Origin: Quadrisphaera granulorum
Lineage (GTDB): Bacteria > Actinomycetota > Actinomycetes > Actinomycetales > Quadrisphaeraceae
Assembly (NCBI RefSeq): GCF_003149145.1
Contig: NZ_QGDQ01000015.1
Location: 1 to 64,000, forward strand
Reading direction: 5' to 3'
DNA length: 64,000 nt
Shown: positions 3,678 through 20,687 of the stretch, in pieces
How the letters are laid out: every line of letters begins with the position of its first letter
Position numbering within the stretch: position 1 is the first letter of the stretch
Position numbers and translations under genes: made by a program
The notes under the pieces: generated by a model
The model's input: only the letters and a program-made list of their open reading frames with translations
Told to the model about the DNA's origin: nothing
Database searches by the model: none

Positions 3678-3867
3678 CGCCGAGGCCGGAAGCGAAGCGG
3701 GTGTCAGAGCGAGGGACATACCTGTACTGCGGACTACGTTGTCATCGTTGTGCAGCCACCACTCTGGCCTGAGGAGCAGCTCATACCCGATGAATGCTCA
3801 GCCGATGCAGTGACGGAATGATGGAGCGGTTCGGCGACGCGCGTACCTTGCGAGAGGCGGATGGACG

Positions 3868-4692: not shown

Positions 4693-5453
4693 CCACATCC
4701 GTCTCCTCACACAGCCTCTCCTACGCCACCGGATCGCCCTGGAAGCCGATGGCGAGCGTCTACACCGGCCACGTAGACGCCTCGTGGGTTCGCAACAGGC
4801 CGAGGCGCCTGACTGCCCGAGAGGTCTACGAGCAAGCGGCGTCAGGTCTGCGGAGTCTTCTACGGGCTCCTGGCTCCCGGCCGGAGACGGGCATCACAGG
4901 AACGACGATGCTCGGGTTCGTTGCGCGGATCGCGGTCGACGGTGCGCCGACTCCAACCGTCACGGGCACCCAGACTGGTCAGATCACGCTCATCTTCACC
5001 TGGTCCTCGGATGAGGTGAGAGCGGAATTTGATAGGTCCTCCTGCAGCGTCGCGGCCACAATCGGCCAGACCTCCCACTCCTTCTTCACTGGTCGAGAAG
5101 CGGAGATGCCGACGTGGACGGTTGACGTGGTACGACGGTGTCTGCGTGGCCTGGACGGTGATGCGTCGACGCAGCTCATCACCCGCACGGCGATCAGTGG
5201 TGATGAGCGCTCGCGCCCGGGTGTACCTGATGACCCCATGGACTACGACTCGCTTCGCGAGCTCGTGAACGAGGTCAGAGCGGAGTACGTGGCTCGTAAG
5301 CGCAGCGCTCACGACGACCGGGAACGGCGGCGCTGGTTTGACGCCTCGGTCAAGTTGCAGGACCAGCTGCAGGAGGTCGACCCCTTCGACGCAGCGCAGG
5401 TGTCCGCTCTTCGCGGCGAGCTGGTGGAGACCCTCCGTACGCTTCGCTCGTGA
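4689..5453 (+). CDS. Uncharacterised protein coupled to zeta toxin; possible antitoxin-like C-terminus
   Basis: GTG start overlapping the TIGR04255 stop; about 254 residues. The N-terminal two-thirds show no recognisable domain. The C-terminal part, from about DYDSLRELVNEVRAEY to the end, is predicted helical and charged, and its end (VKLQDQLQEVDPFDAAQVS then a helix) resembles short proteins that precede zeta toxins in other actinobacteria. The stop overlaps the zeta GTG by four bases. A reasonable hypothesis is a fusion of a sensor or effector domain to an epsilon/antitoxin-like helical segment. Function is not established. Confidence 0.5.
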   Translation: MTTSVSSHSLSYATGSPWKPMASVYTGHVDASWVRNRPRRLTAREVYEQAASGLRSLLRAPGSRPETGITGTTMLGFVARIAVDGAPTPTVTGTQTGQITLIFTWSSDEVRAEFDRSSCSVAATIGQTSHSFFTGREAEMPTWTVDVVRRCLRGLDGDASTQLITRTAISGDERSRPGVPDDPMDYDSLRELVNEVRAEYVARKRSAHDDRERRRWFDASVKLQDQLQEVDPFDAAQVSALRGELVETLRTLRS

Positions 5454-6397
5454 GCGGAGGACCCTCGGACGCGAGCGCCCGGGGAGCTCTGTCGGCAGCC
5501 GACATCGCAGCCATTTTCGCTGTTGACGTTCGGCCGGACGTCTTCGCCAAAGGCGTGGGTGCGCCGGCAGGAGCGACGCCTGTGTGCGTGCTCATCGGTG
5601 GACAACCCGGTGCCGGCAAGACGCGGATCGTGGCGCAGACGCATGCAGCCCTGCCAGGGGCCGTGCAGGTGGTCGGGGACGATCTGCGTCCCTTCCATCC
5701 CGACTACACCGACCTCCTGCGTGACGACCCACTGCGCATGCCAGATATGACGGCTGGAGCGTCGGGCGCCTGGGTAGAACTGTGCATCGAGTACGCGATC
5801 GACCAGCGGGTCCCGCTCGTCGTCGAGACGACGCTCCGGTCAGCGGAGACCCTGCAGCGGACCGCGGGCAAGCTGCGAGCAGGTGGGTTCTCCGTCGAGC
5901 TGAAGGTCGTGGCGGTGCCTCCTCCCGTCTCCCTCCTCGGAACGGCTAGCCGTTACGTCCGACAGCTCGAGGACAAGGGGTGGGGGCGTTGGACGCCCTT
6001 CGCCGCTCACCAGGCTGCAGTCGCAGGTTCTGCGGCCACCCTCGCCACGGCTTGCCTGGGCTCAGCGGTCGACGGGGTGACGGTGGTGAATCGCGAGGGA
6101 GCGGTGCTCTACCGAGGCATGGAGCACGACGAGGTGACCGCGGCCGTCACTCGAGGTCGGTCCTGCTCGTCGATCACCCCAAGCGGGGCGGTCGCCTGGG
6201 TGGAGCAGCTTGCAGCCTGCGCCGGTGTTCTCCTCGGAGACGGCGGGCACGACGACGCGCTCCGCGTGCTCGTGGAGCTTGCTCGCGCCGCGCCGGAGGT
6301 CGAGCGCCAGCTCCTCTCCACAGGTGGCGGGAAGCTGACGGGCCTGCTGCACTCCACCTGCCGGAGGATCGGTCGGCACCGTCTCCCTGACACATGA
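5450..6397 (+). CDS. Zeta toxin family protein (predicted UDP-GlcNAc kinase)
   Basis: P-loop kinase of the zeta/PezT family, which phosphorylates UDP-N-acetylglucosamine and blocks peptidoglycan synthesis in studied members. The Walker A motif GGQPGAGKT is at residues 50-58, and the family's substrate-binding element is visible as GDDLRPFHPDY (Asp77/78, Arg80, His83). A second conserved stretch VVETTLRS follows. At 315 residues it is close to family length. GTG start overlapping the upstream stop by four bases, and its own stop overlaps an ATG that opens a HipB-like tail fragment. Expression is probably coupled to the upstream two genes, one of which may be the antidote. Confidence 0.8.
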   Translation: MSGGPSDASARGALSAADIAAIFAVDVRPDVFAKGVGAPAGATPVCVLIGGQPGAGKTRIVAQTHAALPGAVQVVGDDLRPFHPDYTDLLRDDPLRMPDMTAGASGAWVELCIEYAIDQRVPLVVETTLRSAETLQRTAGKLRAGGFSVELKVVAVPPPVSLLGTASRYVRQLEDKGWGRWTPFAAHQAAVAGSAATLATACLGSAVDGVTVVNREGAVLYRGMEHDEVTAAVTRGRSCSSITPSGAVAWVEQLAACAGVLLGDGGHDDALRVLVELARAAPEVERQLLSTGGGKLTGLLHSTCRRIGRHRLPDT

Positions 6398-6582
6398 CGC
6401 CTTCAGGCGCCACGACGGTCACCATCGGCACCGTCTTCGAGGCGGCCACGCTGTTGGGGCTGCCACTCTTCGGGGCAGAAGGACCCCAGCTGGGCGAGCT
6501 GGCGCGGCGGGAGCGGCACATCGTGGCGTTGCTGCCGCAGCGGGTGACGCATTCCGAGCGACCTGTTGATGACGACTTCTGA
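6394..6582 (+). pseudogene. C-terminal fragment of a HipB-like/Xre antitoxin
   Basis: Sixty-two codons beginning at an ATG that overlaps the zeta stop (ATGA). The sequence TIGTVFEAATLLGLPLFG, then a charged stretch, ALLPQRV and the end VDDDF match the C-terminal tail of Xre-type antitoxins that normally precede HipA kinases. The helix-turn-helix domain that should come first is absent, and no hipA follows: the next 200 bp are empty before a recombinase gene. The most likely explanation is a deletion that joined zeta to the tail of a former HipBA locus. Confidence 0.6.
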
Positions 6583-6781
6583 GACGCGGAGCGGCGTCGC
6601 GACCTCTTTCGTTGGGCGTTGTCGGCGGCTCGGAGCGGGACTGTCCACAGGTGAGGTCGGCGTGCCAGCGCGAGTGAGCACGCCTGCGGCAGGGTCGGCG
6701 TCGCAGGGCGCCGGCTGACGTCGTCGTCCTCCGCTCGCCACGCGGCTGCACCCGCACGCCCCGGGAGCCGACAGCACAGGG

Positions 6782-7726
6782 GTGACGATCGTGGACCACG
6801 CCCCGCCCGGTTCCAGCTCCCTCGGCGACCTCGTCGCGGCGTTCGCCGCGCACCTGCGCGACTACGAGCGGCTGCAGCCGACCACCATCCACAACTACAC
6901 GACGTACCTCACGTCGTTCCTCGGCTACCTGTCCGACGTCGCGGCGGCCGCCGCCGGCGACATCACCGCTGCCCAGCTCAGCGGCTACCTCCGCGCCGAG
7001 CGCGATCGCGGCCTGGCGGAGTCGAGCTTGCAGCTGCGCTGGTACGCGGTCCACGCCTACTACCGCTACCTGCGCCATCACGGGTACGCAGGCCCCTCGC
7101 CGCTCGACAGCGTGCGCCCGCCCAAGGCGAGGCCGGTGCAGCGGCGCGACTACGTGCGCGAAGAGGCCGAGGCGATCCTCGCGGCGGCCCGCCGCAACGC
7201 CGAGCAGGGCACCCGCAAGGGCCAGTTCGACTACGCCGTCATGGCCACCCTCCGCTACACCGGCGTGCGACGGGGGGAACTTGTCGACGCCGACCTGCGC
7301 GACCTCGACCTCGCCCGGCGCGAGCTCACCGTGGTCGGCAAGGGGCGCAAGCGGCGGACCATCCCGCTGCCGCACGCCTACGTCGACGTCATGAGCTGGT
7401 ACCTGGAGGAGGTGCGCCCACGGCTGCCGGAGTCGACGGCGCTGTTCGCCAACCCGCGCGCCAACCTCGACGGCCCGTTCCGGGGGCGCACCGACGGGCA
7501 GACGCTCGAGCGCATGGTCGCGCGCTACGGCGACGAGGCCGGCGTCGCCGGGCCGCACCTCCCGCACCGGTGGCGGCACACGTACGCGACGCACCTGCTG
7601 CGGCAGGGCGTCGACGTCGCCGTCGTCCAGAAGCTCCTGGGACACACGAGCATCACGACGACGTCGATCTACCTCCACCTGGTCCGCGGCGACCTGCTCG
7701 CCGGCGTGGACAAGGCCTTCGGCTGA
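6782..7726 (+). CDS. Tyrosine recombinase/integrase, full length (XerC/D-like)
   Basis: 314 residues with an N-terminal SAM-like core-binding domain (about 14-105) and a catalytic domain (about 120-314). Active-site residues are all present: Arg163 in YTGVRRGEL, Lys187/190 in GKGRKRR, His262 and Arg265 in HRWRH, His288 in GHTS and Tyr297 in SIYLHL. GTG start. It is the complete homologue of the recombinase at 12 and the fragment at 2741, and may have served mobile DNA that includes the toxin loci between them. No att core repeats could be assigned by eye. Confidence 0.85.
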   Translation: MTIVDHAPPGSSSLGDLVAAFAAHLRDYERLQPTTIHNYTTYLTSFLGYLSDVAAAAAGDITAAQLSGYLRAERDRGLAESSLQLRWYAVHAYYRYLRHHGYAGPSPLDSVRPPKARPVQRRDYVREEAEAILAAARRNAEQGTRKGQFDYAVMATLRYTGVRRGELVDADLRDLDLARRELTVVGKGRKRRTIPLPHAYVDVMSWYLEEVRPRLPESTALFANPRANLDGPFRGRTDGQTLERMVARYGDEAGVAGPHLPHRWRHTYATHLLRQGVDVAVVQKLLGHTSITTTSIYLHLVRGDLLAGVDKAFG

Positions 7727-7754
7727 CGCTCGCCAGGGGGCGTTCCTCACGCCG

Positions 7755-8972
7755 TCACGTGATCTCGCGGCGACCGGCACGCTCGGCGAAAGCGTCGATG
7801 GCCGCCAGCACCTCGTCGCTGCGCCAGAACGGTCCGATGCGGTGCTCCCGCTTCGACTTCAGGATGCCCGCGTCGACCAGCGTCCTCAGTGGCGGGTAGA
7901 TGTTGGGCGTCTGCACGCCCACCTCCTGAGCGGCGGCAGCAGCGCTGATCACCGGCTGTCGTGCGATGACGTCGAGCAGGGCCCAGGCATTGCTGTCCCT
8001 GCGGGCCGTCAGGGTCGAGGACCAGGCGGCCTTGATGCGGTCGATGTCGTCGACCAGGTGGCGCGCATTGCTGACCGCCCTCAAGGAGGCTTCCGCGACC
8101 GCGACAACGATCGGGTCGAGGTCACCCTCTCGGTAAGCGGTGAGTGCTGCGTGGTAGCCGTTGACGTCGGCAAGAAGCCCGGCGGACACCGGAACCGCGA
8201 CGTTCCTCGTCACCCCGCGGTGGCGGAGCATCGACTGGACGAGGGCTCGGCCCGTCCGCCCGTTGCCGTCGGTGAAGGGGTGGATGGTCTCGAACTGCGC
8301 ATGGGTCACGGCGGCTGAGACGAGCGCCGGCACCTCCCCGCGAGAAGCGAAGGTGACAAGGTCCTCCATGAGGTCACGGATTCGGCTGTGGTGGGGGGCG
8401 ATGAACGTGGCGCCCTGCGGGCTATCCGATCGTGTGCCGATCCACACCGCTTCCTGGCGCCACGAGCCCGGAGTGTGTCGAGGTTGGCTTGCCATGAGGA
8501 CGGCGTGCATCTGCAGGATGGACGCCGTCGAGATGCTCTCTGCCAGCTCGAGCGCGGCCCGCAGTGCACGGGTGTTTGCTGCGACGAGCTCGGCGTTCTG
8601 CCCCGTCGCGATGCCCAGCTCGGCGCTGAAGATGGCTCGTGCCGAGGCGGTCAGGTCTTCGATCTGCGATGACGATGCTGCCTCCGAGCGCAACAGGACC
8701 GGGGCGAAGCCCGACACCCGCGCGCCCAGTTCAGCGTCGAAACGGCTGAGCTCGTTCGCGGCCTCGGCGGCGAGTTCGGTGACGCGCGGGGACGGGCGCG
8801 GGAGGCGATCATGAATGAACGGCGGCACCGCCGACCGGTAGCTCGTCGGTGGCGTTCTGGCCCCGGGTCTCAGCGCTCGATCGGAGCTGGGGATCCACGT
8901 CTGCTCCTCCCACGTCAGAGCCGGCCACGGCGCTGGCTCACCCTGCGGATCCATGCGCGATGGTGACGTCAT
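7755..8972 (-). CDS. Fic/DOC family protein with C-terminal winged helix
   Basis: Predicted AMP-transferase (or related nucleotidyl transferase). The Fic active-site motif HPFTDGNGR is at residues 231-239, complete with the catalytic His. An N-terminal SSQIEDL element fits the inhibitory/Fic_N region. The C-terminus (about 330-405) reads as a winged-helix DNA-binding domain (VISAAAAAQEVGVQTPN and following), suggesting autoregulation. The start at 8972 is favoured over an ATG 12 codons upstream because GGAG lies seven bases before it. An AT-rich inverted repeat sits just upstream. The target protein is unknown. Confidence 0.85.
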   Translation of the reverse strand: MTSPSRMDPQGEPAPWPALTWEEQTWIPSSDRALRPGARTPPTSYRSAVPPFIHDRLPRPSPRVTELAAEAANELSRFDAELGARVSGFAPVLLRSEAASSSQIEDLTASARAIFSAELGIATGQNAELVAANTRALRAALELAESISTASILQMHAVLMASQPRHTPGSWRQEAVWIGTRSDSPQGATFIAPHHSRIRDLMEDLVTFASRGEVPALVSAAVTHAQFETIHPFTDGNGRTGRALVQSMLRHRGVTRNVAVPVSAGLLADVNGYHAALTAYREGDLDPIVVAVAEASLRAVSNARHLVDDIDRIKAAWSSTLTARRDSNAWALLDVIARQPVISAAAAAQEVGVQTPNIYPPLRTLVDAGILKSKREHRIGPFWRSDEVLAAIDAFAERAGRREIT

Positions 8973-8986
8973 AAGACTGCTCCACG

Positions 8987-9017
8987 TTTTTATGAGATCG
9001 AGGCACAAAGCATAAAA
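8987..9017. promoter_or_regulatory. AT-rich inverted repeat upstream of fic gene
   Basis: TTTTATG and CATAAAA face each other across about 17 bases (8988-8994 and 9011-9017), directly upstream of the chosen Fic start. Such an AT-rich patch is unusual in this GC-rich window. It could be the operator for the Fic protein's own winged-helix domain, or part of the promoter, or mark the left border of the neighbouring tnpB element. Confidence 0.4.
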
Positions 9018-9160
9018 TCATCGGTGGGCGCTATGTGGCCGTGCCCCTTGTGGTGGTGGACTCTCGGCCTGCTGAAGTCGGGCTGTCAGACCCCACCCCT
9101 ACCGTCTCGAACAGCCGTCCCGCCCATAGGGGCCGGCCCGGGAAATCGAGGAGGGGTGAG

Positions 9161-10741
9161 ATGTCCGCACAGCACGACGACGACGGTCAGCCCCTCGCCG
9201 CGACGCCCTCACCAGCGCCAGCGCCGACGCTTGCACCGACGGCTGTGCCGTTGCCAGTGCCGACGCCGGGGCCGGGGCCGGTGGTGCGCGCCTACCGCCT
9301 CGCCCTAGACCCCACCCCCACCCAGGCGACCGCCTTCGCCCGGCATGCGGGTGCCAGCCGGTGGGCGTTCAACTATGCCCTCGCCGCCAAGAAAGCCGCC
9401 CATGCTGCGTGCCGTGAGCAGGTCGACGCACTGACCGCCGCCGGTGTCCCCGAAGCCGAAGCCCGCAAGGCAGTGAAGGTTGAGGTGCCGGGGGCGTTCA
9501 CCGTGCAGAAGACCTGGCAGCACGAACGCACCGAAGTGTGCCCGTGGTGGGGTGAGGTCTCCTCCAAAGCGTTCGTGCAGGCCTTCCGCGACGCCGACAA
9601 AGCCTGGACCAACTGGCTAGCCTCCCTCAAAGGGCAACGGGCCGGGCACCGAGTGGGTTACCCCCGATTCAAGAAGCGCGGCCGATGCCGGGACTCCTTC
9701 CGCCTCGAAGGGGCCATCCGCCCTGAGGGCTACCGCCACCTCCTGCTGCCCCGCATCGGGCCGGTGCGCACCCACCAGACCTGCAAACCCCTCGCCCGCG
9801 CCCTGGAGCGTCAGGGCGGGCGGATCACTTCGGTGACCGTCTCCCGCGGGGCGCACCGTTGGTACGCCTCCGTCGTCGTCACCTTCCCCTCAGGGACTCT
9901 CCCGACTCCGCAGCGCGCCGCGCCGACACGGGCGCAGCAGCGCGCCGGAGTCGTCGGGGTGGACCTGGGCGTCAAGCACCTCGCTGCCCTGTCCGCCCTT
10001 GGCGCTGACGGGACGCTCGCTGAGTCGCTGGTGGCGAACCCTCGCCACGGCGCCCGAGGAGCTCGACGCCTGGCCAAAGCCCAACGTGCCCTGTCGCGTA
10101 CTCAGCGTGGCTCGCACCGGCGAGCCAAGGCTGCTGCCATCGTCGCTCGTCGTCACGCCGATCTCGCCGCTCAGCGAGCGACATCCATTCACGTGTTGAC
10201 CAAGCATCTGGCGACCACCTACGCCGGGGTCGCGATCGAGGACCTGCACGTGTCGGGGATGACCCGCTCCGCGAAGGGATCTCTCGCAAAGCCGGGACGC
10301 AACGTCCGCGCCAAGGCCGGACTCAACCGGTCCCTGGCGGATGTCTCCTTCGGGGAGATTCGCCGGCAGCTGGCCTACAAGACCCGCTGGTACGGCTCCA
10401 CGTTGCGTGTGGTGGGGCGGTTCGAGCCGACGAGCAAGACGTGTTCGGCGTGTGGCAGGCAAGACCCACACCTGTCGCTGGCCGAGCGGATCTACGAGTG
10501 CCCGTGCGGTCTGAGGTTGGACCGTGACCTGAACGCTGCGCGCAACATCCGCGTCGCGGGGTTCGAGCCTGCGGCGTGGGCTGCTGCCGTCGCCCGGGGT
10601 AGCCGGGAGACGTCAAACGCTCGCCGAGGACCTGCAAGTCCTCACACCCGCCCGGGTGTGGGGCTGGGACCGTTGACGCGAGAAGACCATCCCGACACGG
10701 CCGCTGCAGTGGCGGTCGGGGTGGTCACCTCGGGCAGGTAA
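9161..10741 (+). CDS. tnpB: TnpB-family RNA-guided nuclease (OrfB, IS605 type)
   Basis: The RuvC-like catalytic triad is intact: Asp in GVDLGVKHLAALS, Glu in IEDLHVSGM and Asp in DRDLNAARNI. A four-Cys zinc ribbon (CSACG...CPCG) sits between the last two. Family members use an omega RNA from the element's 3' end to cut DNA and promote element retention. The start at 9161 has a strong GAGGAGGGG Shine-Dalgarno; the frame is open further upstream but that would add a Pro-rich leader. After the catalytic end, about 60 more residues (poor in recognisable sequence) overlap the hairpin region likely to be the omega RNA. 526 residues. Confidence 0.85.
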   Translation: MSAQHDDDGQPLAATPSPAPAPTLAPTAVPLPVPTPGPGPVVRAYRLALDPTPTQATAFARHAGASRWAFNYALAAKKAAHAACREQVDALTAAGVPEAEARKAVKVEVPGAFTVQKTWQHERTEVCPWWGEVSSKAFVQAFRDADKAWTNWLASLKGQRAGHRVGYPRFKKRGRCRDSFRLEGAIRPEGYRHLLLPRIGPVRTHQTCKPLARALERQGGRITSVTVSRGAHRWYASVVVTFPSGTLPTPQRAAPTRAQQRAGVVGVDLGVKHLAALSALGADGTLAESLVANPRHGARGARRLAKAQRALSRTQRGSHRRAKAAAIVARRHADLAAQRATSIHVLTKHLATTYAGVAIEDLHVSGMTRSAKGSLAKPGRNVRAKAGLNRSLADVSFGEIRRQLAYKTRWYGSTLRVVGRFEPTSKTCSACGRQDPHLSLAERIYECPCGLRLDRDLNAARNIRVAGFEPAAWAAAVARGSRETSNARRGPASPHTRPGVGLGPLTREDHPDTAAAVAVGVVTSGR

Positions 10742-10808: not shown

Positions 10809-10845
10809 CCCTCCGACGCTAGTGGCACGGCGAGCCGTCGGAGGG
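10809..10845 (-). terminator. Hairpin overlapping the end of the first TOPRIM gene
   Basis: CCCTCCGACG pairs perfectly with CGTCGGAGGG around a 17-base loop. On the minus strand the 5' arm lies in the last codons of the TOPRIM gene and the TAG stop is in the loop. No T run follows, as is common in GC-rich genomes. It could end transcription of the ATPase/TOPRIM unit. Confidence 0.45.
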
Positions 10846-11535
10846 GCGTTCCGGCTGCCGGACCTCACCCGATCTCGTGCCGAGATCGGCGACGAACTGT
10901 CGGAGCGGTGCGAGGGCATCTCCACGGATGTCGAACGCCCCGTGAGCGATACCCATCCCGACGTTCTTGGGCGTCTTCGGGAAGGTAGCGAGGTAGGCCT
11001 GGAGAGCTCCTTTGAGGAGCCGTGATCGGGGTGCGCTGGCGAGAGTTGACGCTCGAACGAATGCCATCGCCTCCTTGAAGGCGGACGGGTGAGCCGGTAC
11101 CTCGGCGAGCAGCTGTTCAAGAGCGCCTTGGGCTCCACCTCCAGGGAGGACGAAGACACCCGCGGCAAGGGTGTCCGACGCAGCCCATCCCCCGGGCTGC
11201 TCGGGGAGCGGCAGATCCGCCCGCCGCAGTGCCCCCGTGCAGGAGGCGAACGCACCCTCCGGGTTCGCGTCAGCGTCGCGCAGGAGCGCAATGGCCCGCA
11301 CGTTGGTCGCGAACTCGGGGGCACGCGCCATGGCGCGCAGTGCGCTGCCCCAGTCCGTGTCTTTGCCGGTCATGTCGATGATGAGGAGGCTCGGTACGCC
11401 TACCTCTTCTGCCACCGCCGCCGTCAGGTACAGGTCGTCGGCGCCCTCCACCAGCGCGAGTGCCGCGGTGTCGAACCGGGTGGGCTCAGGGGCAGGGAAC
11501 GGCGTGTAGCGAGCGGTGAAGATGCCGAGTCGCAT
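10819..11535 (-). CDS. TOPRIM-fold protein (DUF3226-like), partner of OLD-like ATPase, copy 1
   Basis: Predicted nuclease or regulatory TOPRIM protein, 238 residues. The TOPRIM signature is visible: the Glu motif ALVEGADDLYL (Glu30) and the Asp pair in LLRDADANP (Asp87, Asp89). The start is the ATG at 11535, which shares one base with the TGA of the upstream ATPase (TGATG), so the two are co-translated. Proteins of this type pair with AAA/ABC-type ATPases in OLD, Gabija and PARIS (AriB) defence systems; the exact family here (DUF3226 or DUF4435-like) is inferred from motifs. A paralogous pair lies at 17074-18827. Confidence 0.7.
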   Translation of the reverse strand: MRLGIFTARYTPFPAPEPTRFDTAALALVEGADDLYLTAAVAEEVGVPSLLIIDMTGKDTDWGSALRAMARAPEFATNVRAIALLRDADANPEGAFASCTGALRRADLPLPEQPGGWAASDTLAAGVFVLPGGGAQGALEQLLAEVPAHPSAFKEAMAFVRASTLASAPRSRLLKGALQAYLATFPKTPKNVGMGIAHGAFDIRGDALAPLRQFVADLGTRSGEVRQPERPSDGSPCH

Positions 11536-12626
11536 CAGCGCAGATCCACGTTCAGGCTGAGCCCAGCGACGATGTCGGGCTGCTCGTAGACCGCGACACC
11601 GGTGAGTCCGGCCTGGCCCCGGGTGAGGCGGTACAGGCGCAGGTCGTCCGGCTGCTCGCTGAACGCTGACGCCGCAGCTGTCAGGCACTCATCGCTGTGT
11701 GTCGTGGCGAAGACCTGCACGTCCAGCCTGGTGGCGGCACGGTGCAGCACCTTCCACAGGTGCTCCATGACGCTCCAGTGCATCCCCTTCTCGACCTCGT
11801 CGAGCAAGAGCACTCCGCCTCGGGCCTCTTCCATCGCCAGGAGGTGGTACGTGAGCATGAGGGGACCGTCCCCGAGGAGCGACAGCGGGAGGACGACGCC
11901 GCCGTCGAGCTCGGCGTGGAGCTCTGACCGTGAGGGACCGACCAGGACCTCCAGCCCCCTGATGCGGGGATCGAGCCCCTGCAAGGCTTCCACCAGGGTG
12001 CGGTCGCGTCGCGTCCGCCGGAGCTCGGAGTAGGCAGCCTCGATGCTGAACGAGACACCGGTCTTGACGAAGTACGACTTGACCAGCTCGTCGAGGGACG
12101 CCGGCGGTTCGAGCGGCATCGACACGCTCATCTGCTGCACCGCGGAGGCGAGCCCCCCGACCGCATGGACCTCGACGCGCTGGGTGCGCTCGACCGGCGG
12201 CGATCCCTCGTGCTCGACGGTGACCTTGACCGAGGCGCTCGCGGTCTGGGTACTCAGATCGGCAGCCACGGAAGCGCCTGCCTGGGGCGCTGCGGGATCA
12301 CCGGTGATCGTGATGGTCGAGCGCCGGCCTGCTCGGACACCCGACAGGACGATCGGGCGGCTGGAGTCCAACTCGTGGAAGAACGAGCTCCAGGGGCTGT
12401 CGCGATCGGACCAGGGGAACTCCACTGGCGGGCGGTTACGCAGCGGCCGCAGGACTTGCAGCGCATTCGACGCGGCGAACGGACCACACGCCAGGAGGAG
12501 GATCGCCTCGAGGATCGTCGTCTTGCCGGTGTCGTTGCGTCCGGCGATGACGTTGACTCGCGCCAGGTCGTCCAGCTCTAGCGCGACGAGCCCGCGGTAC
12601 CCGTCAAACCGCACGCTCCGATACAT
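11535..12626 (-). CDS. OLD-like ABC-type ATPase (AAA_15/AAA_21 type), copy 1
   Basis: 363 residues. The N-terminus MYRSVRFDGYRGL is the usual first strand of SMC/OLD-like ATPases. Walker A GRNDTGKT is at 29-36, an ABC-signature-like PLSLLGDG at about 247-254, Walker B GGVLLLDEVEKG at 270-281 and the H-loop His in FATTHSDE at 310. There is no fused nuclease domain; instead the next gene encodes a TOPRIM protein with overlapping start. This is a two-gene OLD-like arrangement, as in PARIS (AriA/AriB). The hypothetical gene 87 bp upstream on the same strand may belong to the unit. Confidence 0.8.
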   Translation of the reverse strand: MYRSVRFDGYRGLVALELDDLARVNVIAGRNDTGKTTILEAILLLACGPFAASNALQVLRPLRNRPPVEFPWSDRDSPWSSFFHELDSSRPIVLSGVRAGRRSTITITGDPAAPQAGASVAADLSTQTASASVKVTVEHEGSPPVERTQRVEVHAVGGLASAVQQMSVSMPLEPPASLDELVKSYFVKTGVSFSIEAAYSELRRTRRDRTLVEALQGLDPRIRGLEVLVGPSRSELHAELDGGVVLPLSLLGDGPLMLTYHLLAMEEARGGVLLLDEVEKGMHWSVMEHLWKVLHRAATRLDVQVFATTHSDECLTAAASAFSEQPDDLRLYRLTRGQAGLTGVAVYEQPDIVAGLSLNVDLR

Positions 12627-12713
12627 GCCCGAGACCCTACTGACCGGCCAAGCCCGACGACGTCGCGAAGCCAGCGGGCCACGGAGGGTGGTTGACCGAC
12701 CGCGGGCTGGACC

Positions 12714-13655
12714 TCATGGTGCGGGAGTGACTTCTGCGGTGGCCTCCGTGAGCCACGCCGCGCGCGAGCGGAGCAGGGGCAAGAAGCGGACGACGTCCTC
12801 GGCCTGGTCGGGCTGCTCCGGGCATGGCGGGTGCTCGAGGGCCCGCTGCAGACGGGCTGCAGCCTCGGCCGGACCGAGGTCGAGCACCTCGGTGATCGGT
12901 TCGGTGGCGGAGGCTGAGGCGTAGTCCGAGCGCAGCCGGGCGACGTCCCGTCCCTCCGTGAACCAGACGTCCTTGACGCCGCCGCCGAGCTCGTGGTCGA
13001 TGAGCACGGACATCGCGTGCTGCCGGTGGCCGTAGGCGAACTCGACGACGATCGACTCCTGGACGCCCAGCGTGTCGCGATAGCACCAGACGCGTTCCAC
13101 TGCCGGGCGTCCGGCCGGTGCCGCCCAGCGGGGCAGCGACACCCCCGCGGCGACGAGCCGCTCGGCCGCCGCCTTCGCCGTGTCCGCACCCCGCCCTCCC
13201 AGGAGGGTGGACAGCACCCGCAACAGGCCAGCGTCGTCGGGGGAGCCCTCCTGTTCCGCCGCACTGAGGAGGAGCGCGACCAACGCGTTGACCTGCTGTT
13301 GGATGGGCCTCTCGACGACGTCGTCGGTGCTGGGGCCGTCGTCGTCGCCCTCCACATCGGCCGTCAGCTCCTCCACGAGCGACGCGAGCAGGAGGCAGCC
13401 TTCGAGCTCTGCCTCGAAGGGATGGCGTGATGCGCGCATGTCGGCCAGCGCAGCCGCGAGCAGGTCGTCGACGAGGCGCCCCTCGCCAGCTTCGGCGAGC
13501 GCCTGCTGGAGAGCGGCAAGAGGCACATCGGCCTCGTTCTCACGCTGCGCATCGCGCGGCGGAGCAGGCGGGGGCGTCTTCGGTGGTGCGCTCGCGGGAC
13601 CGACCTGGCGGGGACGAGTCGCGTTGCGGCGAGGGGGTCGCTGCTGTCGAGCCAT
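12714..13655 (-). CDS. Conserved hypothetical protein, possible first gene of ATPase/TOPRIM unit
   Basis: 313 residues; not recognised. The first 45 residues are Pro/Arg/Gln-rich and probably disordered. The middle is helical and acidic (around VEELTADVEGDDDG). The last third has a mixed alpha/beta look, with YRDTLGVQESIVVEFAYGH and then HELGGGVKDVWF. No signal peptide or membrane segment. It is transcribed toward the ATPase with an 87-bp gap, so co-transcription is possible. The Asp-rich run is encoded by a GTCGTC tract of the type seen across this window. Confidence 0.6.
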   Translation of the reverse strand: MARQQRPPRRNATRPRQVGPASAPPKTPPPAPPRDAQRENEADVPLAALQQALAEAGEGRLVDDLLAAALADMRASRHPFEAELEGCLLLASLVEELTADVEGDDDGPSTDDVVERPIQQQVNALVALLLSAAEQEGSPDDAGLLRVLSTLLGGRGADTAKAAAERLVAAGVSLPRWAAPAGRPAVERVWCYRDTLGVQESIVVEFAYGHRQHAMSVLIDHELGGGVKDVWFTEGRDVARLRSDYASASATEPITEVLDLGPAEAAARLQRALEHPPCPEQPDQAEDVVRFLPLLRSRAAWLTEATAEVTPAP

Positions 13656-13753
13656 GGTCCCAGGTTCCCAAACCGAGCCTCCGACGCCGCCTGCGGGGCA
13701 AAGTCGTCCCAGGCCCCGCTACACCTGGAGCGCCGTTACGCCGATGGAGTGAC

Positions 13754-14281
13754 ATGGACTTTGTCACGGTGGAAGCCCTCGTCAAGCGGGCCGTGTTCTC
13801 GCTCGTGCACGACGGCAACCCGGCGGGCGACGAGCCTGCCGACGTCCCCGGCTCGGTGGGGCAGCGGCACCTGGTGCAGGAGCTGGCCTGTCGCGTCGCG
13901 CCGCTGCTGCCGCAGGGGTGGACCCTCGAGTACGGCGACGGCCGGGTCGAACCTGACCTCGTCGTGCGCCGTACCAACACCCCCGGGGACGACGACAGCG
14001 GCGGCCTGCTGGCCATCGGCGTGCGGACTGCGTCCCCCGCTCGCCGCGCGAGCGTGGCGGACGAGGCATGGCGGACCCTCGCCGGCTTCGCCGCGCGCGG
14101 GCACCAGCACGCGGTGGTCGTGATGCTCGGGCTCGACCTCGCCCGCGGCGTGCAGCCGACCTGGCAGTGGGCCGCCTGCGGCGCCGCGGCCTCCGACCCC
14201 CGCCCGGTGCCCATCTTCACCGACGTCGAGCTCCGCAGCCTGGCCGTCGCGCGCCTCCAGCGGGAGCTGCAGCGCTCCTGA
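13754..14281 (+). CDS. Hypothetical protein
   Basis: 175 residues, start at ATG 13754, transcribed away from the 12714 gene. A segment GDGRVEPDLVVRR followed by GGLLAIGVRT is reminiscent of restriction-nuclease-like folds (E/D-x(n)-D then a beta strand), but no family can be named. No membrane segments. The gene is divergently placed between a possible defence unit and the PIG-L gene. Confidence 0.55.
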   Translation: MDFVTVEALVKRAVFSLVHDGNPAGDEPADVPGSVGQRHLVQELACRVAPLLPQGWTLEYGDGRVEPDLVVRRTNTPGDDDSGGLLAIGVRTASPARRASVADEAWRTLAGFAARGHQHAVVVMLGLDLARGVQPTWQWAACGAAASDPRPVPIFTDVELRSLAVARLQRELQRS

Positions 14282-14360
14282 CCGTCCCGTGAGCTCTCGT
14301 GAGCTCAGACCCCCGGCGCGCCTCCCCGGATCCGCACGGCGTGCCGATCACGATCGAGGG

Positions 14361-15479
14361 GTGCGTGTCGCCCAGCTCCGGAGCCCGCGCGCCGTCGTCG
14401 TGACGGCTGCGGCCGCCGTCGTCGTTGTCCTCGGAGTCCTCCAGAGTGCCGCCCCCGCGCTCGCGGCCAGCGAGCGATCCTTCGCCGGTACCACCACGGT
14501 GACCACCCCACCAGAAGGCACCGAGGTCCCCGAGCAGTGGCGCCCGACGACGGCGCCCGGCGTCACCGGTGTGCTCTACGCGGTGCTGCCGCACCCTGAC
14601 GACGAGTTCGAGGTTTGGTCGCAGGTACAGAACACCCCCGACCTCTTCAAGGTGTTCGTGCTTCTCACCCGCGGTGAGCAGACCGCCAACTGCGCGCCCG
14701 ACACCCCCGGCTACGAGCCCGCCGTCGAACCGGCGCCGGTGCCGATGCCCCGCGGCCGCTGGACGGCCTCGTGCGAGCAGGCCCGCCTCGACTCCTGGCG
14801 CGGCTTCTTCACCGACATGGCCGTGACCGACCCCTCCGTGCCCGCCACCTTCACCGACCGCGGTGCGGTGACCCGTCTCGCCGGCTCGCGCAGCACCCGG
14901 GTCTGCCGCGTGGACGGCGAGGAGGACCAGTGCGCCAGCCGCGACCGCACCGCTCGCGTCTGGACCGACGACGGCGGGCACGGCGCCCTCGTGGTCTTCG
15001 ACCTCGGCGACGGCGACCTCACCCCCTCCGAGGTGGCATGGGCGATGCAGGCGGTGCGCGACAACCGCAGCCGGCTCGGCATCGACCCGACGCTGCCCAG
15101 CCGCGGCGTCGTCGGGTCGTACTACGACGAGGTCACCGCCGCCGGGTTCCAGTACCGGCACCCCGATCACCGGGCCGTGGCCAAGGTGCTGTGGTCCACC
15201 AACTTCGGCCTCGGCCCACAGATGGGCGCTGCGGGCGCCGACGACCTGCGCGCCACCGTCAAGGGGACGGTCAGCGAGACGGCGCTGGACACCGCCTTCG
15301 GGCCCGAGGGCGCCGAGTGGCGCGGCGCCCACGCCCGGCGCTACGGCTGGCTGTGGCGCGACGACACCGACGCCGTCACCGGCGGCGTCGTGCACTCCTA
15401 TCAGGTGGACCGCACCGGCCAGCGCCGCCTGTTCCACCGCGCGCAGCTGTTTTGGAAGACCTTCGACGACGCCAGCTAG
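14361..15479 (+). CDS. Exported PIG-L/LmbE family deacetylase
   Basis: Zinc-dependent N-acetylglucosaminyl deacetylase fold. The metal motif HPDDE follows a first beta strand (VLYAVLPHPDDEFEVW) and the second motif HPDH is in YRHPDHRAVAK. The N-terminus from the GTG at 14361 (RVAQLRSPRAVVV, hydrophobic stretch, ending APALA) looks like a signal peptide; an earlier in-frame GTG at 14289 would add 24 residues. Exported members may act on cell-envelope sugars rather than on mycothiol or GPI precursors; the substrate is not known. The threonine/serine exporter gene follows after 11 bp. Confidence 0.75.
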   Translation: MRVAQLRSPRAVVVTAAAAVVVVLGVLQSAAPALAASERSFAGTTTVTTPPEGTEVPEQWRPTTAPGVTGVLYAVLPHPDDEFEVWSQVQNTPDLFKVFVLLTRGEQTANCAPDTPGYEPAVEPAPVPMPRGRWTASCEQARLDSWRGFFTDMAVTDPSVPATFTDRGAVTRLAGSRSTRVCRVDGEEDQCASRDRTARVWTDDGGHGALVVFDLGDGDLTPSEVAWAMQAVRDNRSRLGIDPTLPSRGVVGSYYDEVTAAGFQYRHPDHRAVAKVLWSTNFGLGPQMGAAGADDLRATVKGTVSETALDTAFGPEGAEWRGAHARRYGWLWRDDTDAVTGGVVHSYQVDRTGQRRLFHRAQLFWKTFDDAS

Positions 15480-15490
15480 CGTCATCTCCG

Positions 15491-17029
15491 ATGACTGAAG
15501 CGGACACGCCCCGCGGGGGCGCGCACGCTGCTCGCGCTCGCCGGCAGCTGCTGGCCCGCCTCGGCGAGAGCATGAGCGGCAAGGTGCCCACCAGCCCCGT
15601 CGGCCGTCGGGCCGTTCGCGCCCGTCTCGCCGAGCGGCAGGTGCGCGAGGTCATCGAGGTGGCGGTGCGGTTCGGGGAGGCGATGCTCTCCCTCGGCGCC
15701 ACGGCGTCCGTCTGCACCGACGTGATCCGCCGCCTCTGCGCCACCTTCGGGGTGCCCTGCCAGGTGGACCTCACGTTCACCGTCATCCTCGTGGCGCACG
15801 ACGGCGGCGAGGCCAGCAGCGTCAGCGTGCTGCGCGTGGTCCAGTCCCGCGCGGCCGACTACCACCGCCTCAGTCGTCTCACCACCCTCGCGTACGACGT
15901 GCAGCTCGACCCCGGCGTCCCCGACGTCACTCGCGCCCTGGAAGACCCGGCCGCCCGCGAGGCGGTGCAGCAGCGGTTGGAGCAGGTGCACGCGAGCCTC
16001 GACCAGGTGCTCGGTGCGCCCCACCGCTACCGGCCCGCGCTCGTCACGGCAGCGCTGGCCACGATGGCGGCCGCGGTGGCCGTGCTGCTCGGCGGGGGAC
16101 TGCCCGTGATGCTGCTGTCCGCGACCACCACCGCCGCCATCGACCTCGTGCTGCGCCGCCTCGGCCGCTGGGGACTGCCGGCGTTCTTCCTGCAGGCCGC
16201 GGGATCGGCGATGGCCACCACCGTGGCGGTGGCGCTGCTCGCGGTGCCCGGTCTGCCGGTGTCGCTGACGGCGCTGCCGCCGTCGCTGGTGGTGGCCTCG
16301 GGGATCATCGCGCTGCTCGCGGGGCTCTCGCTGGTGGGCGCCGCGGACGACGCGATCAACGGCTTCCCCGTCACCGCCAGCGGCCGCCTCCTGGAGGTGC
16401 TGCTGCTGACGCTCGGCCTGGTGGTGGGTATCGGGGGCGTGCTCGACATCGCCTCACGGCTCGGCGTGGAGCTGGCCCTGTCCGCCAGCGCCGACGCTTT
16501 CTGGCCGTGGCCCGTCCAGCTGGCCGCCGCCGCGGTGGCCTCCGGCGCGTGGGCGGCGTCGTCCTTCGCCGGGCCGCGTGCCTCCCTGCAGGCGGCCGCG
16601 TGGGGGGCGCTGGCGTTCAGCGTCTCCAGCCTTGTGACCACGGCGGGCGCCTCGGCCGCCGTTGCTGGCGCGCTTGCCGCCCTGGTGGTCGGCTACGGCG
16701 CCGAGAGACTCTCCCGTCGCACGCGCGTGCCGGCCGCCGTCACCGCGACCTGCGCCATCGTGCCGCTGTTGCCAGGTCTGACGATCTTCAACGGGCTGTT
16801 CGCCCTGGTCAGCGGCGCCCCCACCGGCACGGGCGGCGGGCTGCTGCTGGAGGCGGCGACGATCGGCATCGGCCTCGCGGCAGGCACCACGCTGGGCACC
16901 ACCCTGGCCACCCGGATGCGGGAAGCGCGGGCACCGAAAGCGACGGTGATGGGGACGACGACGGCAGCGCCCGAGCCTCCCCGCCACGGCGAACCAACCC
17001 CTCCTCCGACACCGAGATCAAGGACCTGA
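15491..17029 (+). CDS. Threonine/serine exporter (ThrE) family membrane protein
   Basis: 512 residues. An N-terminal soluble region of about 180 residues (EVIEVAVRFGEAMLSLGAT and later SRLTTLAYDVQ) is the DUF1212/ThrE domain start, followed by about ten hydrophobic segments. Family members export threonine and serine in Corynebacterium. The conserved TIFNGLFAL segment and the last helices are present, and the C-terminus is a Pro/Thr-rich cytoplasmic tail. The ATG lies 11 bp after the PIG-L stop, so the two genes probably share a message. Confidence 0.8.
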   Translation: MTEADTPRGGAHAARARRQLLARLGESMSGKVPTSPVGRRAVRARLAERQVREVIEVAVRFGEAMLSLGATASVCTDVIRRLCATFGVPCQVDLTFTVILVAHDGGEASSVSVLRVVQSRAADYHRLSRLTTLAYDVQLDPGVPDVTRALEDPAAREAVQQRLEQVHASLDQVLGAPHRYRPALVTAALATMAAAVAVLLGGGLPVMLLSATTTAAIDLVLRRLGRWGLPAFFLQAAGSAMATTVAVALLAVPGLPVSLTALPPSLVVASGIIALLAGLSLVGAADDAINGFPVTASGRLLEVLLLTLGLVVGIGGVLDIASRLGVELALSASADAFWPWPVQLAAAAVASGAWAASSFAGPRASLQAAAWGALAFSVSSLVTTAGASAAVAGALAALVVGYGAERLSRRTRVPAAVTATCAIVPLLPGLTIFNGLFALVSGAPTGTGGGLLLEAATIGIGLAAGTTLGTTLATRMREARAPKATVMGTTTAAPEPPRHGEPTPPPTPRSRT

Positions 17030-17049
17030 GCGCTGCATTCCACGCTGTC

Positions 17050-17065
17050 CGTCAGCGCGCTGACG
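17050..17065. terminator. Perfect 16-bp palindrome between convergent genes
   Basis: CGTCAGCGCGCTGACG is its own reverse complement and sits in the 44 bp between the stop of the exporter gene and the stop of the second TOPRIM gene. A bidirectional terminator is the simplest reading, although a loopless palindrome could also be a protein-binding site. Confidence 0.4.
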
Positions 17066-17073
17066 ATCCTCGG

Positions 17074-17730
17074 TCAGCTGGCTGCCAGGAGGCGGAGCCA
17101 CTCGATGAGCGGACTGAAGCCGGCAGCATCGTGGATCAGCCGCTTGTTGGTCTGCAGCGCGTCGCCCGGACTGCGGGGGCTCAGGGGGAGGCCCGCGAGG
17201 ACGGCCTGAAGCTCGGCCTTCTGGCGATGTTTGACAGGCTCGAGTGCTTGCTCGACGTCGTCGATGTACGTCGACGCGAGACGGCGTCGCTCCGGAGACG
17301 CGACGGCCAGATAGAGACCTTCCACAGCCCCTCGCTGCCCCCGGCCCGGGCTCGCGAACAGGCCGGTGCGCTTACCCGCGACCGTGTGGACTTCTCCGGG
17401 ATGTGGCAGGCGGGTGCCCGCGTGCGTGTCGAGTACCGGGGCGATCTGTGCGAGAGCGCGCTCGAGGGTGTCCTCATCCGTCACGATGCCCAGCGTTCCT
17501 GGTCTCGACTGGAAGAGGTCGGATGTCGCGACGGTGATCACCAGCTTGTGGATGTTGTCGACGCCGTCGCAATTGATGACCTGGACCTTGCCGTCGAGGT
17601 CCGGTAGGTCGGTGGAGTGCTTCTTCAGGAGGTACTGGACGAGTTCGGCGTCGTCCTTCCCCTCCGCCAGCACCACCGTCGGGCAGACGATCTCGAGGTC
17701 GCCGACGCTGACCTCCCGAGGAAAGATCAC
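17074..17730 (-). CDS. TOPRIM-fold protein (DUF3226-like), partner of OLD-like ATPase, copy 2
   Basis: 218 residues from the GTG at 17730, which overlaps the ATPase stop by four bases (GTGA). The TOPRIM Glu motif is VVLAEGKDDAELVQ (Glu23) and the acidic pair is in GIVTDEDT (Asp85, Asp87), followed by a conserved region and helical C-terminus. It resembles DUF3226 proteins that accompany ABC-type ATPases. Compared with copy 1 at 10819 the order, overlap and motif spacing are similar, but the sequence has diverged strongly. A nuclease or RNase role is inferred from the fold. Confidence 0.7.
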   Translation of the reverse strand: MIFPREVSVGDLEIVCPTVVLAEGKDDAELVQYLLKKHSTDLPDLDGKVQVINCDGVDNIHKLVITVATSDLFQSRPGTLGIVTDEDTLERALAQIAPVLDTHAGTRLPHPGEVHTVAGKRTGLFASPGRGQRGAVEGLYLAVASPERRRLASTYIDDVEQALEPVKHRQKAELQAVLAGLPLSPRSPGDALQTNKRLIHDAAGFSPLIEWLRLLAAS

Positions 17731-18827
17731 CGGACCTCCGCCGATACGGAGAGCACCTGCTCCACGGCGGCCCCCGACAGCACGACCGGCCGCACCCGAC
17801 CGGCGGCAGCGCCAGCCCAGCCACCGTTGTCGAAGCGGGCATCTCTCAACCTGACGAGACTCAGCTCGTCGAGGTGTCCGTCGCGCAGGGCCAGGACCGC
17901 GGCCTGGATGGCTTCGTCGCTGTGAGTGGTGACGACGAGTTGGGTGCCTGTTGCCCGGGTGGCCTCGACGAGGTGCGACCACATGCTGACGAGGACGCTG
18001 TGGTGAAGACCATCCTCGATCTCGTCGATGAGGAGCAGGCCTCCTGGCGCTGTCGAGGCTGCCAGCAGGTAGGTCAGGGCCCGGTGGATTCCTGTGCCGA
18101 GCGAGGTGAAGGGGATCGGCGGGCCTTCCTCGAACACAGCGTGCAGGGCGGTCGGTCCTTCAGAGGCCAAGAGCTCCAGGCTGACCAGCCGAGGCTCGAT
18201 GGAGCGGAGCGCTGTGACCAGCGCCGAAGTGCCCCCGGAGAGGCGCAGCGCTGTGTAGGCGTCGACGACGTCGACAGCACCCACGTCCTTGATGATCCGC
18301 ACCTTTTCGAAGCCATCTTCATTCACCGGTGGCTCGGCGGTGAAGCTCATGCGGGTGCCCGTGATGTCGAGAGCGACCAGCACGCGGTGATCGCGGTGCT
18401 CTGCTCCTTCCTCGCCCAGCACCCGCACCTCGAGTCCTACCGCAGTGCGGGGGCTCCCCTCGACGTCCATGAGGACAGTGCCGGATGAAGCGGCGGCTGC
18501 CGGTCGCAGCTCGATACCGCGTTGCTTCCCGTCCACGCTGGCGACGAGCCTGATGGGACCCGAGGGGGCAGACGCGGGGAAGAACGTCCGCCACGGATCG
18601 ACGGACTCACCTGACTGGCTCCGCGACAGCGGAAGCAGGTGGCGCATGGGCCGCAGCACCTGCAGTGCGTTCATGGGCGCGTGTGCACCGCACGCGTGCA
18701 GGAACAGCGCCTCGAGCAGAGCAGACTTGCCGACGCCGTTCCGTCCGGTGACCACCGTGACACGGCTCAGGGGCACCTCGAGGTGATCCAGGCCGCGGAA
18801 TCCGTCGACGGTGAAGCTCGAGTACAC
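17727..18827 (-). CDS. OLD-like ABC-type ATPase, copy 2
   Basis: 366 residues. Walker A GRNGVGKS at 28-35, a signature-like FTSLGTGIHRAL, Walker B GGLLLIDEIEDGLHHSV, and H-loop VVTTHSDE. It shares the segment NALQVLRP after Walker A with copy 1, which is not a generic ATPase motif, so the two are paralogues. The frame stays open far upstream across the antisense of the chemoreceptor gene; the GTG at 18827 was chosen because it places Walker A at the normal distance and the first strand YSSFTVDGFRGL at the N-terminus. Confidence 0.8.
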   Translation of the reverse strand: MYSSFTVDGFRGLDHLEVPLSRVTVVTGRNGVGKSALLEALFLHACGAHAPMNALQVLRPMRHLLPLSRSQSGESVDPWRTFFPASAPSGPIRLVASVDGKQRGIELRPAAAASSGTVLMDVEGSPRTAVGLEVRVLGEEGAEHRDHRVLVALDITGTRMSFTAEPPVNEDGFEKVRIIKDVGAVDVVDAYTALRLSGGTSALVTALRSIEPRLVSLELLASEGPTALHAVFEEGPPIPFTSLGTGIHRALTYLLAASTAPGGLLLIDEIEDGLHHSVLVSMWSHLVEATRATGTQLVVTTHSDEAIQAAVLALRDGHLDELSLVRLRDARFDNGGWAGAAAGRVRPVVLSGAAVEQVLSVSAEVR

Positions 18828-18894: not shown

Positions 18895-18972
18895 CCCCTC
18901 TCGCACTTGCCGCGGAAAGTGCGGCTCTGACGGGCCGCATGGCGCACTTGCCGCGGAAAGTGCGAGAAGGGG
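18895..18972. repeat. GCACTT-CCGCGG-AAGTGC doublet element, copy 1
   Basis: Two direct copies of the 20-mer GCACTTGCCGCGGAAAGTGC (18903-18922 and 18944-18963), each a near-palindrome around CCGCGG with one mismatched pair. Flanking C-rich and G-rich arms (CCCCTCTCGCAC and GTGCGAGAAGGGG) make the whole unit a larger inverted repeat. It lies upstream of the second ATPase gene and of the divergent chemoreceptor gene. The same structure recurs at 53532. Confidence 0.8.
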
Positions 18973-19100: not shown

Positions 19101-20687
19101 GTGTTCCGTCGTCTGGCAGACCTGCGCATCGGCGCGAAGCTCTACCTGGGGTTCGGGGCCGTACTGGCGCTGCTGCTCGTGGTGGCGGGCATCGGTGTCG
19201 TCCGCCTCGGGGAGTCGCAGAAGCACCTCGATGACCTGGCCAGCAGCGGCCTGGTCTCCGTGGAGACCGCCGACCAGGTCATGACGGCGCTCGTGCAGGC
19301 CCGGCTCGACCTCGCCAATGCCGCGCTGACCCCCGACGCGGCCGGTACGGAGAAGGCGATCGCGGCCCTCGACGCCGACCAGAAGACCATCGACGAGCAC
19401 TGGAAGGACTACCTGGCCACCAGCCCGGCGTCCAGCGCCGCACAGCAGAAAGCGTTCACGGACGGCCTCGCTGCGTGGCGCGCCACGCTGCCCCCGTTGC
19501 TGGCGTTGGCCAAGGCCAACGACCTGGACGGCTTCGTCGACCAGCGCACCAAGGTCGCCACGCCGGCCGCTCAGGTCATGACGACGGCGCTCCAGGAGAT
19601 CGTCAAGGTCGAGGCAGCGGCTGCCACGGCGATGAGCGACGACGGCGCCGCTGCTTACCGCGCCGCCGTCGTCATGCTGGTGGTGTGCGCGCTGTTCGCT
19701 GCGGCGCTCGCCGTCGCCATCGCCGTCGCCGTCGCCCGGTCCACCGCCCGCCCGCTCGCCCGGGTGCTGGCCGTGGTGGAGGGCATGGCTGCAGGGCGCC
19801 TCGACGCGCGCGTCAAGCTCGACCGTCAGGACGAGGTGGGCCGCCTCGCAGCCGCCACCGACACCTCCCTGGATGCCCTTTCCGCCGCGATGCGCGAGAT
19901 CCGCGACGAGGCGACCGCGCTCAACGCCTCGTCCAGCTCCCTGAGCAGCGTGTCGGTGCAGCTCTCCTCCGGTGCGCAGGAGGCGGCGGCCCAGACGCAG
20001 GTCGTCTCCGCAGCCTCCGAGGAGGTCACCGTCTCCATCTCCACGGTCGCTGCCGCTGGCGAGGAGATGACCGCCGCCATCGCCCAGATCGCGACCGCCA
20101 CGAGCGAGGCCTCCCAGATGGCCTCCTCCGCGGTGGCTGCCGCCGGTGCCGCGGGTGGGGCGATCGAGCGGCTCGGGGTCTCCAGCAAGGAGATCGGCGA
20201 CGTCGTCAAGCTCATCACCTCCATCGCCGAGCAGACCAACCTGCTCGCACTCAACGCCACGATCGAGGCCGCCCGCGCCGGCGAGCTCGGCAAGGGCTTC
20301 GCCGTCGTCGCCGGTGAGGTCAAGGAGCTGGCCCGTCAGACCGCCCAGGCCACGGACGAGATCATCGGCAAGGTTTCCGCGACCCAGGGAGACGCGGCCT
20401 CGGCGGCGTCGGCGGTGACGCAGATCGGTGACGTCATCGCGCGCATCGACGAGGTGCAGGCCACCATCGCCGCCGCGGTGGAGGAGCAGTCGGCCACGAC
20501 GTCCGAGATGGTCCGCAACGTCACGGAGATCTCCACCGGCTCGGAGCAGATCTCGGCCAACATCTCCAGCATCGCCGAGGGCACCGAGCAGAACCGCGCC
20601 AGCGCGGGGATGACCGCTTCCGCAGCCACCGACGTAACGGCATCCGCCGCGAAGCTGACCGAGCTCACGGGGCGCTTCGTCCTCTGA
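19101..20687 (+). CDS. Methyl-accepting chemotaxis protein
   Basis: 528 residues. Membrane segment 1 near 12-32 ([19 protein letters not shown]), a periplasmic-type four-helix ligand region, membrane segment 2 near 190-212, a HAMP domain, then the signalling domain whose hairpin tip is clear ([20 protein letters not shown]). It should bind CheA/CheW at the inner face of the membrane. No che or flagellar genes are in the window. GTG start preceded by a G-rich Shine-Dalgarno region. A strong hairpin follows the stop. Confidence 0.9.

Follow-up and report, generated by a model that had tools for sequence, protein, structure and literature searches.

Two ATPase–DUF3226 gene pairs of Quadrisphaera granulorum: candidate split OLD-type modules of the catalogued PDC-M38 kind

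What do two neighbouring ATPase–nuclease gene pairs in an actinomycete genome do, and do they belong to a known anti-phage system? The window (the whole stretch of DNA analysed, 64,000 nt, GC content ~70%) covers positions 1 to 64,000 of contig NZ_QGDQ01000015.1 of Quadrisphaera granulorum. A first-pass annotation had described two minus-strand pairs ~5 kb apart, each with an ATPase gene followed by a TOPRIM gene and with overlapping stop and start codons; the open reading frames (ORFs), their order, strand, overlaps and spacing were all confirmed (Table 1). The ATPase stop codon shares one base with the nuclease ATG in pair 1 (TGATG), and the overlap in pair 2 is four bases (GTGA). Each pair probably represents a PDC-M38-like split OLD toxin module, an abortive-infection anti-phage system in which the ATPase would restrain a toxic nuclease and free it on sensing phage.

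Both TOPRIM partners were assigned to DUF3226 (PF11536), with Pfam scores of 53 bits for the pair 1 nuclease (P0001) and 73.5 bits for the pair 2 nuclease (P0003; cut-off: 27); P0003 also matched OLD-like_TOPRIM (22.3 bits). DUF4435 was unmatched in both partners even at an E-value (E) of 1 and had no match in their own genome, which agrees with the earlier choice of DUF3226 over DUF4435. RloB gave no match in either partner. The two nucleases are ~22% identical in the family alignment, and direct comparison gave one short local match (E 1e-6). Seven columns are invariant in 75/75 sequences, the window pair included: E23, D27, D85, D87, G112, E137 and K171 (P0003 numbering). The Glu and the Asp pair reported at first pass were recovered (EGADD...DAD and EGKDD...DED), and all six putative catalytic positions (E-x3-D, DxD, E, K) are present in both window nucleases, as judged by alignment for P0001.

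These six residues appear to match the two-metal site of class 2 OLD nucleases in type and order, with each of its elements represented (ExxxE/D, DxD, helical-domain Glu, catalytic Lys). In the Bp class 2 OLD enzyme, E400, E404, D455, D457, E508 and K562 serve to coordinate two magnesium ions or to aid catalysis (PMC6755086); the TOPRIM set of retron Eco2, which is an RNase, is E374/D378, D460/D462, E515 and K562, with Asp at the second position (PMC12405507). Residue equivalence was judged by motif order, spacing and predicted secondary structure. The Thr/Ser two residues ahead of the helical-domain Glu is not retained, and Ala is found there in both window nucleases. No description of a full OLD-type two-metal site in DUF3226, as predicted here, was found in the literature searched. 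In the nuclease tree, the branches are long and could not be placed safely. Such branches might suggest that the pairs are horizontally acquired relics decaying in this genome, a reading that we regard as extremely improbable because the four ORFs are open and full length and every catalytic residue is intact.

The structure of P0003, modelled with AlphaFold2 (AF2; predicted local distance difference test score of 90.5), was compared with known structures using Foldseek. Solely three Xcc class 2 OLD structures (C-terminal regions) were matched below E 0.001, followed by retron Eco2 and Bp OLD; AriB lay outside the top 50 matches. The DUF3226 family profile searched against the PDB found AriB (E 0.001) as its sole matches below E 0.01, and the PADLOC AriB model was matched by 14/75 DUF3226 members. 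Since the closest folds are those of class 2 OLD DNA nucleases, and the same catalytic set, lysine included, serves DNA cleavage (PMC6755086), each pair might act in direct DNA restriction of the Gabija or OLD type: the ATPase-gated nuclease would nick or degrade phage or plasmid DNA, a reading that differs from the favoured one mainly in substrate. However, AriB and retron Eco2, which have related sites, act on RNA (PMC12409363, PMC12405507), and the helicase partner found in Gabija is lacking: neither the ORF list nor a Pfam scan of the neighbours showed a UvrD-like helicase gene adjoining a pair. DNA restriction is accordingly held as a doubtful possibility, and RNA is favoured over DNA as the nuclease substrate on precedent only.

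The two ATPases are 36% identical over 338 residues (E 6e-52), and the alignment includes the shared stretch NALQVLRP pointed out at first pass; with the divergence of the nucleases, this upholds the description of two diverged versions. NALQVLRP is special to the window ATPases because the wider family reads differently at those columns. ATPase 1 carries Walker A GRNDTGKT, signature-like LLGDG, Walker B LLLDEVE and switch TTHSDE, and ATPase 2 carries Walker A GRNGVGKS, Walker B LLIDEIE and switch TTHSDE; in both, the Walker A motif, a signature-like LGDG/LGTG, the Walker B motif including its Glu and the switch His are retained. In the PADLOC library, AbiLi was the best defence match of ATPase 1 (7e-45, 152 bits; ATPase 2: 2e-27, 95 bits) and PDC-M38A matched both (5e-40, 136 bits and 1e-31, 109 bits, respectively); the AriA models reached 71-74 bits at best, under the PDC-M38A and AbiLi scores. 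In the ATPase tree, the window ATPases cluster on long branches (Shimodaira-Hasegawa-like approximate likelihood ratio test support of 95) and form a separate deep branch with NALQVLRP. From this joint grouping, and given the uncertain nuclease tree, it is likely, if unproven, that the two pairs descend from a shared ancestor, via duplication or joint gain.

Foldseek placed the ATPase model among Rad50/SMC heads, PtuA, retron Eco8 and OLD ATPases. With Rad50 and SMC heads among the first matches, and a cell-cycle role reported for one OLD protein class (PMC12796447), a RecF/Rad50-like ATPase with a TOPRIM nuclease might serve DNA repair or chromosome maintenance instead of defence. This is very unlikely in view of the extreme patchiness of the pairs, their absence from congeners, their lower GC content at third codon positions (GC3) and their mobile carriage, all detailed below.

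That the pairs are split OLD-like ATPase–TOPRIM modules, as first proposed, is supported by these comparisons; that they form a distinct type is not, as PADLOC catalogues the same two genes in the same order as the candidate system PDC-M38 and the pair is widespread. A PDC-M38A gene lies next to a PDC-M38B gene in both window pairs, and the DUF3226 and PDC-M38B models were matched by 75/75 partner proteins scanned (two window nucleases included). The difference is one of distance: the window nucleases match PDC-M38B weakly (6e-4, 17.5 bits and 7e-7, 27 bits) and the ATPases form their own deep branch. The window pairs are deeply branched new members of this catalogued, uncharacterised kind, where 'already catalogued' refers to the PADLOC library itself, because no mention of DUF3226 or PDC-M38 was found in the literature searched.

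PARIS (AriA with AriB, 'class 4 OLD') likewise combines a split ABC ATPase with a TOPRIM nuclease, and the AriB matches of DUF3226 add to this likeness. However, the DUF3226 partners have no DUF4435 domain, the ATPase belongs to a different subfamily and is not of the AriA type, and the P0003 fold is closest to class 2 OLD; PARIS membership was rejected. The pairs were also likened to AbiL (AbiLi with AbiLii), a two-gene abortive infection system, as both ATPases are of the AbiLi type. AbiLii is RloB-like (PMC10440598), whereas the DUF3226 and RloB profiles are not convincingly related (comparison probability 0.9%), RloB was matched by 1/75 DUF3226 family members, and the ATPases encoded beside RloB in related genomes are no more than remotely related. 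AbiL membership was rejected on the partner, which is not an RloB-like AbiLii. Class 2 OLD and GajA (Gabija) seem to share the nuclease fold and the six catalytic elements, but they are single fused proteins and the window pairs are separate ORFs; class 2 OLD also has a helicase gene next door. The TOPRIM effector of retron Eco2, the second group of P0003 fold matches, shares the catalytic set, including the Asp of ExxxD, but is fused to a reverse transcriptase and controlled by multicopy single-stranded DNA, not by an ATPase.

The breadth of the family (not its frequency, as the survey was seeded with family members) was assessed by a genome-contig scan, which returned at least 80 loci from Pseudomonadota, Cyanobacteriota, Bacteroidota, Thermodesulfobacteriota, Acidobacteriota, a Myxococcales bin and methanogen or anaerobic methanotrophic (ANME) archaea. 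The genome-contig loci listed and four viral loci gave 83 loci with a clear family ATPase. A full-length DUF3226 gene stands directly behind the ATPase in 74 of these, always as a separate ORF, with an overlap of -1 in 38 pairs and -4 in 16. More than one DUF3226 match was found in 11/35 carrier genomes, some matches being fragments, and two copies are not odd among carriers. A phage collection search gave no full-length relative, viral scans with a two-sequence ATPase alignment or with P0002 (ATPase 1) alone returned little, and a plasmid search with P0003 alone gave no match.

Mobile elements are among the carriers. In many Klebsiella isolates and some E. coli, 4-kb ColRNAI plasmids have the pair as their main cargo. 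Of 5426 complete E. coli genomes, 8 carry the E. coli version, on plasmids only. Further carriers are an Acinetobacter plasmid, a Plesiomonas plasmid (where phage tail genes adjoin it), a prophage-like region, viral contigs and a Methanocaldococcus (archaeal) plasmid, on which the ATPase is annotated in two pieces. Some small plasmids have broken copies, and the DUF3226 gene of one Klebsiella plasmid is annotated in two pieces. The Acinetobacter cumulans plasmid p4_060092 (L010, 9.7 kb) carries the pair alongside tet(39), and a Thalassobium metagenome-assembled genome (L075) has an almost identical ATPase, which may reflect contamination or recent transfer.

Carriage as main plasmid cargo, together with the neutralisation of TOPRIM_OLD toxins by AAA antitoxins in two tested pairs of the NetFlax D29 kind (PMC10440598), would also suit an addiction (toxin-antitoxin) module that maintains a plasmid or island: the parts would be the same, selected for killing cells that lose the module and not for stopping phages. 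Against this stand the chromosomal members in many phyla, the unstable antitoxin that such pairs usually need, of which there is no sign here, and the anti-phage activity of the related ATPase–TOPRIM pairs tested elsewhere, PARIS and AbiL; we consider addiction unlikely.

The family ATPases end in a conserved tail. The C-terminal residue is Arg in 83/83, Glu is found at -3 in 80, and the sequence is mostly Glu-Val-Arg; its spacing from the conserved residues ahead of it is constant, and the last four ATPase residues are disordered in the single-chain AF2 model. The tail Glu codon is GAG in 52/71 (versus 34% in the rest of these genes), and GAG-GT precedes the nuclease start by ~six bases in overlapping pairs. 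Judged from these codons, part of the tail conservation is that of a presumptive ribosome-binding site, which constrains the DNA. A purely ribosome-binding role was rejected, and the tail appears to be kept as protein too, because each of the six Arg codons is used at the end and the tail is also present in genes that lack GAG and in pairs that do not overlap. The ATPase end may thus be doubly used, as a coupling signal in the DNA and a docking peptide in the protein. For comparison, ten ATPase-like ORFs adjoining RloB genes lack the tail, a control that is suggestive only as these are remote relatives, and no DUF4435 genes were found in 148 genomes. The invariant tail is new at family level, as no description was found in the literature searched. 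Two very short tandem ATPases (~185 aa each), one of them ending in GEIR, were seen without a DUF3226 gene on a viral contig (L017, 3796-5140).

The first-pass annotation had named universal core genes without defence neighbours as an outcome that would refute its proposal; the pairs are not universal core genes. DUF3226 was absent from all but the own genome when 297 genomes of the order and 396 of the phylum were scanned (~680 distinct, slight overlap), and no ATPase like P0002 was found at E 1e-12 elsewhere among the 396. Five congeners are without both pairs; in three congeners, the genes that flank pair 2 here (PIG-L-like, ThrE-like, cell-wall-binding) are kept in the same order and enclose other ORFs. 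The GC3 of the four pair genes is 0.77-0.87, against mostly 0.87-0.96 in backbone neighbours, and resembles that of the nearby Fic, zeta-like and TnpB genes. The lower GC3 and the absence from congeners fit horizontal gain of the pairs.

Mobility, patchiness and kinship make the case for defence, and the precedents of PARIS, AAA–TOPRIM_OLD and AbiLii favour an abortive-infection nuclease under ATPase control: AriA holds AriB and releases it as a tRNase (PMC12409363), and a Fusobacterium AbiLii was toxic in E. coli, although its partner did not relieve this (PMC3985639). The gene pairing with its order and coupling, the mobility and patchiness, the tail, the intact ATPase motifs and the full set of nuclease residues are evident from sequence and model; what we infer beyond these is the restraint, its trigger, the release, the substrate and the protection, as follows. 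The first gene would encode a RecF/SMC-type ABC ATPase that undergoes ATP-dependent assembly and serves as sensor and restrainer, and the second, translationally coupled gene would encode a separate TOPRIM nuclease that resembles class 2 OLD and uses a two-metal site. As long as the cell is resting, the nuclease would be kept inactive by the ATPase, plausibly via the flexible C-terminal -E-[VIL]-R tail docked on it. A phage signal would alter the ATPase state and free the nuclease, which would cut nucleic acid, with RNA (possibly tRNA) likelier than DNA, and growth would stop.

Several observations weigh against this account. The searchable literature yielded no experimental work on a DUF3226 pair, the TM-scores (template modelling scores) of the P0003 Foldseek matches are only ~0.5, and the tail conservation is shared with the presumptive ribosome-binding site. 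Deletion of the PARIS ATPase is not toxic (PMC9122126), and control need therefore not be simple antitoxin action. The defence-gene neighbourhood anticipated at first pass did not appear either: at E 1e-15, 65 PADLOC families were matched by the neighbours of 11 chromosomal members (107 ORFs) and 97 by 20 random regions of the same genomes (110 ORFs). No defence-island enrichment was seen in this comparison, which is a weak result as families and not genes were counted, generic PADLOC models were included and ORF calling was crude.

As the window ATPases group on long branches and the nucleases diverged faster, the two copies may differ in the trigger to which they respond or in the target that they cut. 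A bolder account, which we advance as no better than tentative, is that DUF3226 pairs form a separate split OLD immunity class, distinct from PARIS, in which the -E-V-R tail would hold a class-2-OLD-like nuclease off until a phage trigger pulls the tail out, and the window would hold two copies that diverged long ago and differ in trigger or target.

Table 1. Coordinates of the two gene pairs and their sequence features in the window
Feature	Position	Strand	Description
ATPase, pair 1 (P0002)	11535-12626	minus	363 aa; RecF/SMC-type ABC ATPase, PDC-M38A/AbiLi-like; C-terminus ...NVDLR
DUF3226 TOPRIM nuclease (predicted), pair 1 (P0001)	10819-11535	minus	238 aa; ATG start
ATPase, pair 2	17727-18827	minus	366 aa; GTG start; C-terminus ...SAEVR
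DUF3226 TOPRIM nuclease (predicted), pair 2 (P0003)	17074-17730	minus	218 aa; GTG start
NALQVLRP in ATPase 1	12444-12467	minus	Family consensus differs at these columns
NALQVLRP in ATPase 2	18648-18671	minus	Family consensus differs at these columns
C-terminal tail V-D-L-R of ATPase 1	11538-11549	minus	Family form [E/D]-[VIL]-R at very end
C-terminal tail E-V-R of ATPase 2	17730-17738	minus	GAG GTC codons plausibly double as Shine-Dalgarno site of the nuclease gene

The region adjoining pair 1 (12-10741) contains tyrosine recombinase genes or fragments (12-767, 2741-3103 and 6782-7726), a HipA_2-like kinase with DUF3037 (873-2566), a zeta-toxin-like protein (5450-6397), a Fic protein (7755-9008) and TnpB/OrfB (9035-10741). 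Immediately upstream of ATPase 1, and likewise on the minus strand, a gene at 12714-13655 encodes a 313-aa protein with no Pfam family; it is absent from congeners and has matches in two other relatives only. This gene could belong to the same insertion and was considered as a possible third component of pair 1. Beside pair 2, a chemotaxis-receptor-like gene (19101-20687) belongs to a very large paralogous family in the genus, with many DNA-level matches per genome. The 20-base palindrome GCACTTKCCGCGGMAAGTGC occurs in 102 copies in the genome (reversed control: 0) and resembles dispersed repeats of the repetitive extragenic palindrome (REP) or bacterial interspersed mosaic element (BIME) type. 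Its copies are often paired, with starts 41-42 bases apart; one such pair lies just upstream of ATPase 2 (18903-18922 and 18944-18963) and another at 53543-53562 and 53584-53603.

With this analysis, DUF3226, a domain of unknown function, gains a specific and testable predicted role, that of a stand-alone two-metal OLD-type nuclease under partner-ATPase control. As the module recurs on small Klebsiella plasmids, in prophages and in archaea, a functional account would explain a widespread candidate system. The ATPase–TOPRIM interface of related pairs was not resolved by AlphaFold (PMC10440598), and the invariant ATPase tail offers a simple mutational handle on how ATPases restrain TOPRIM effectors.

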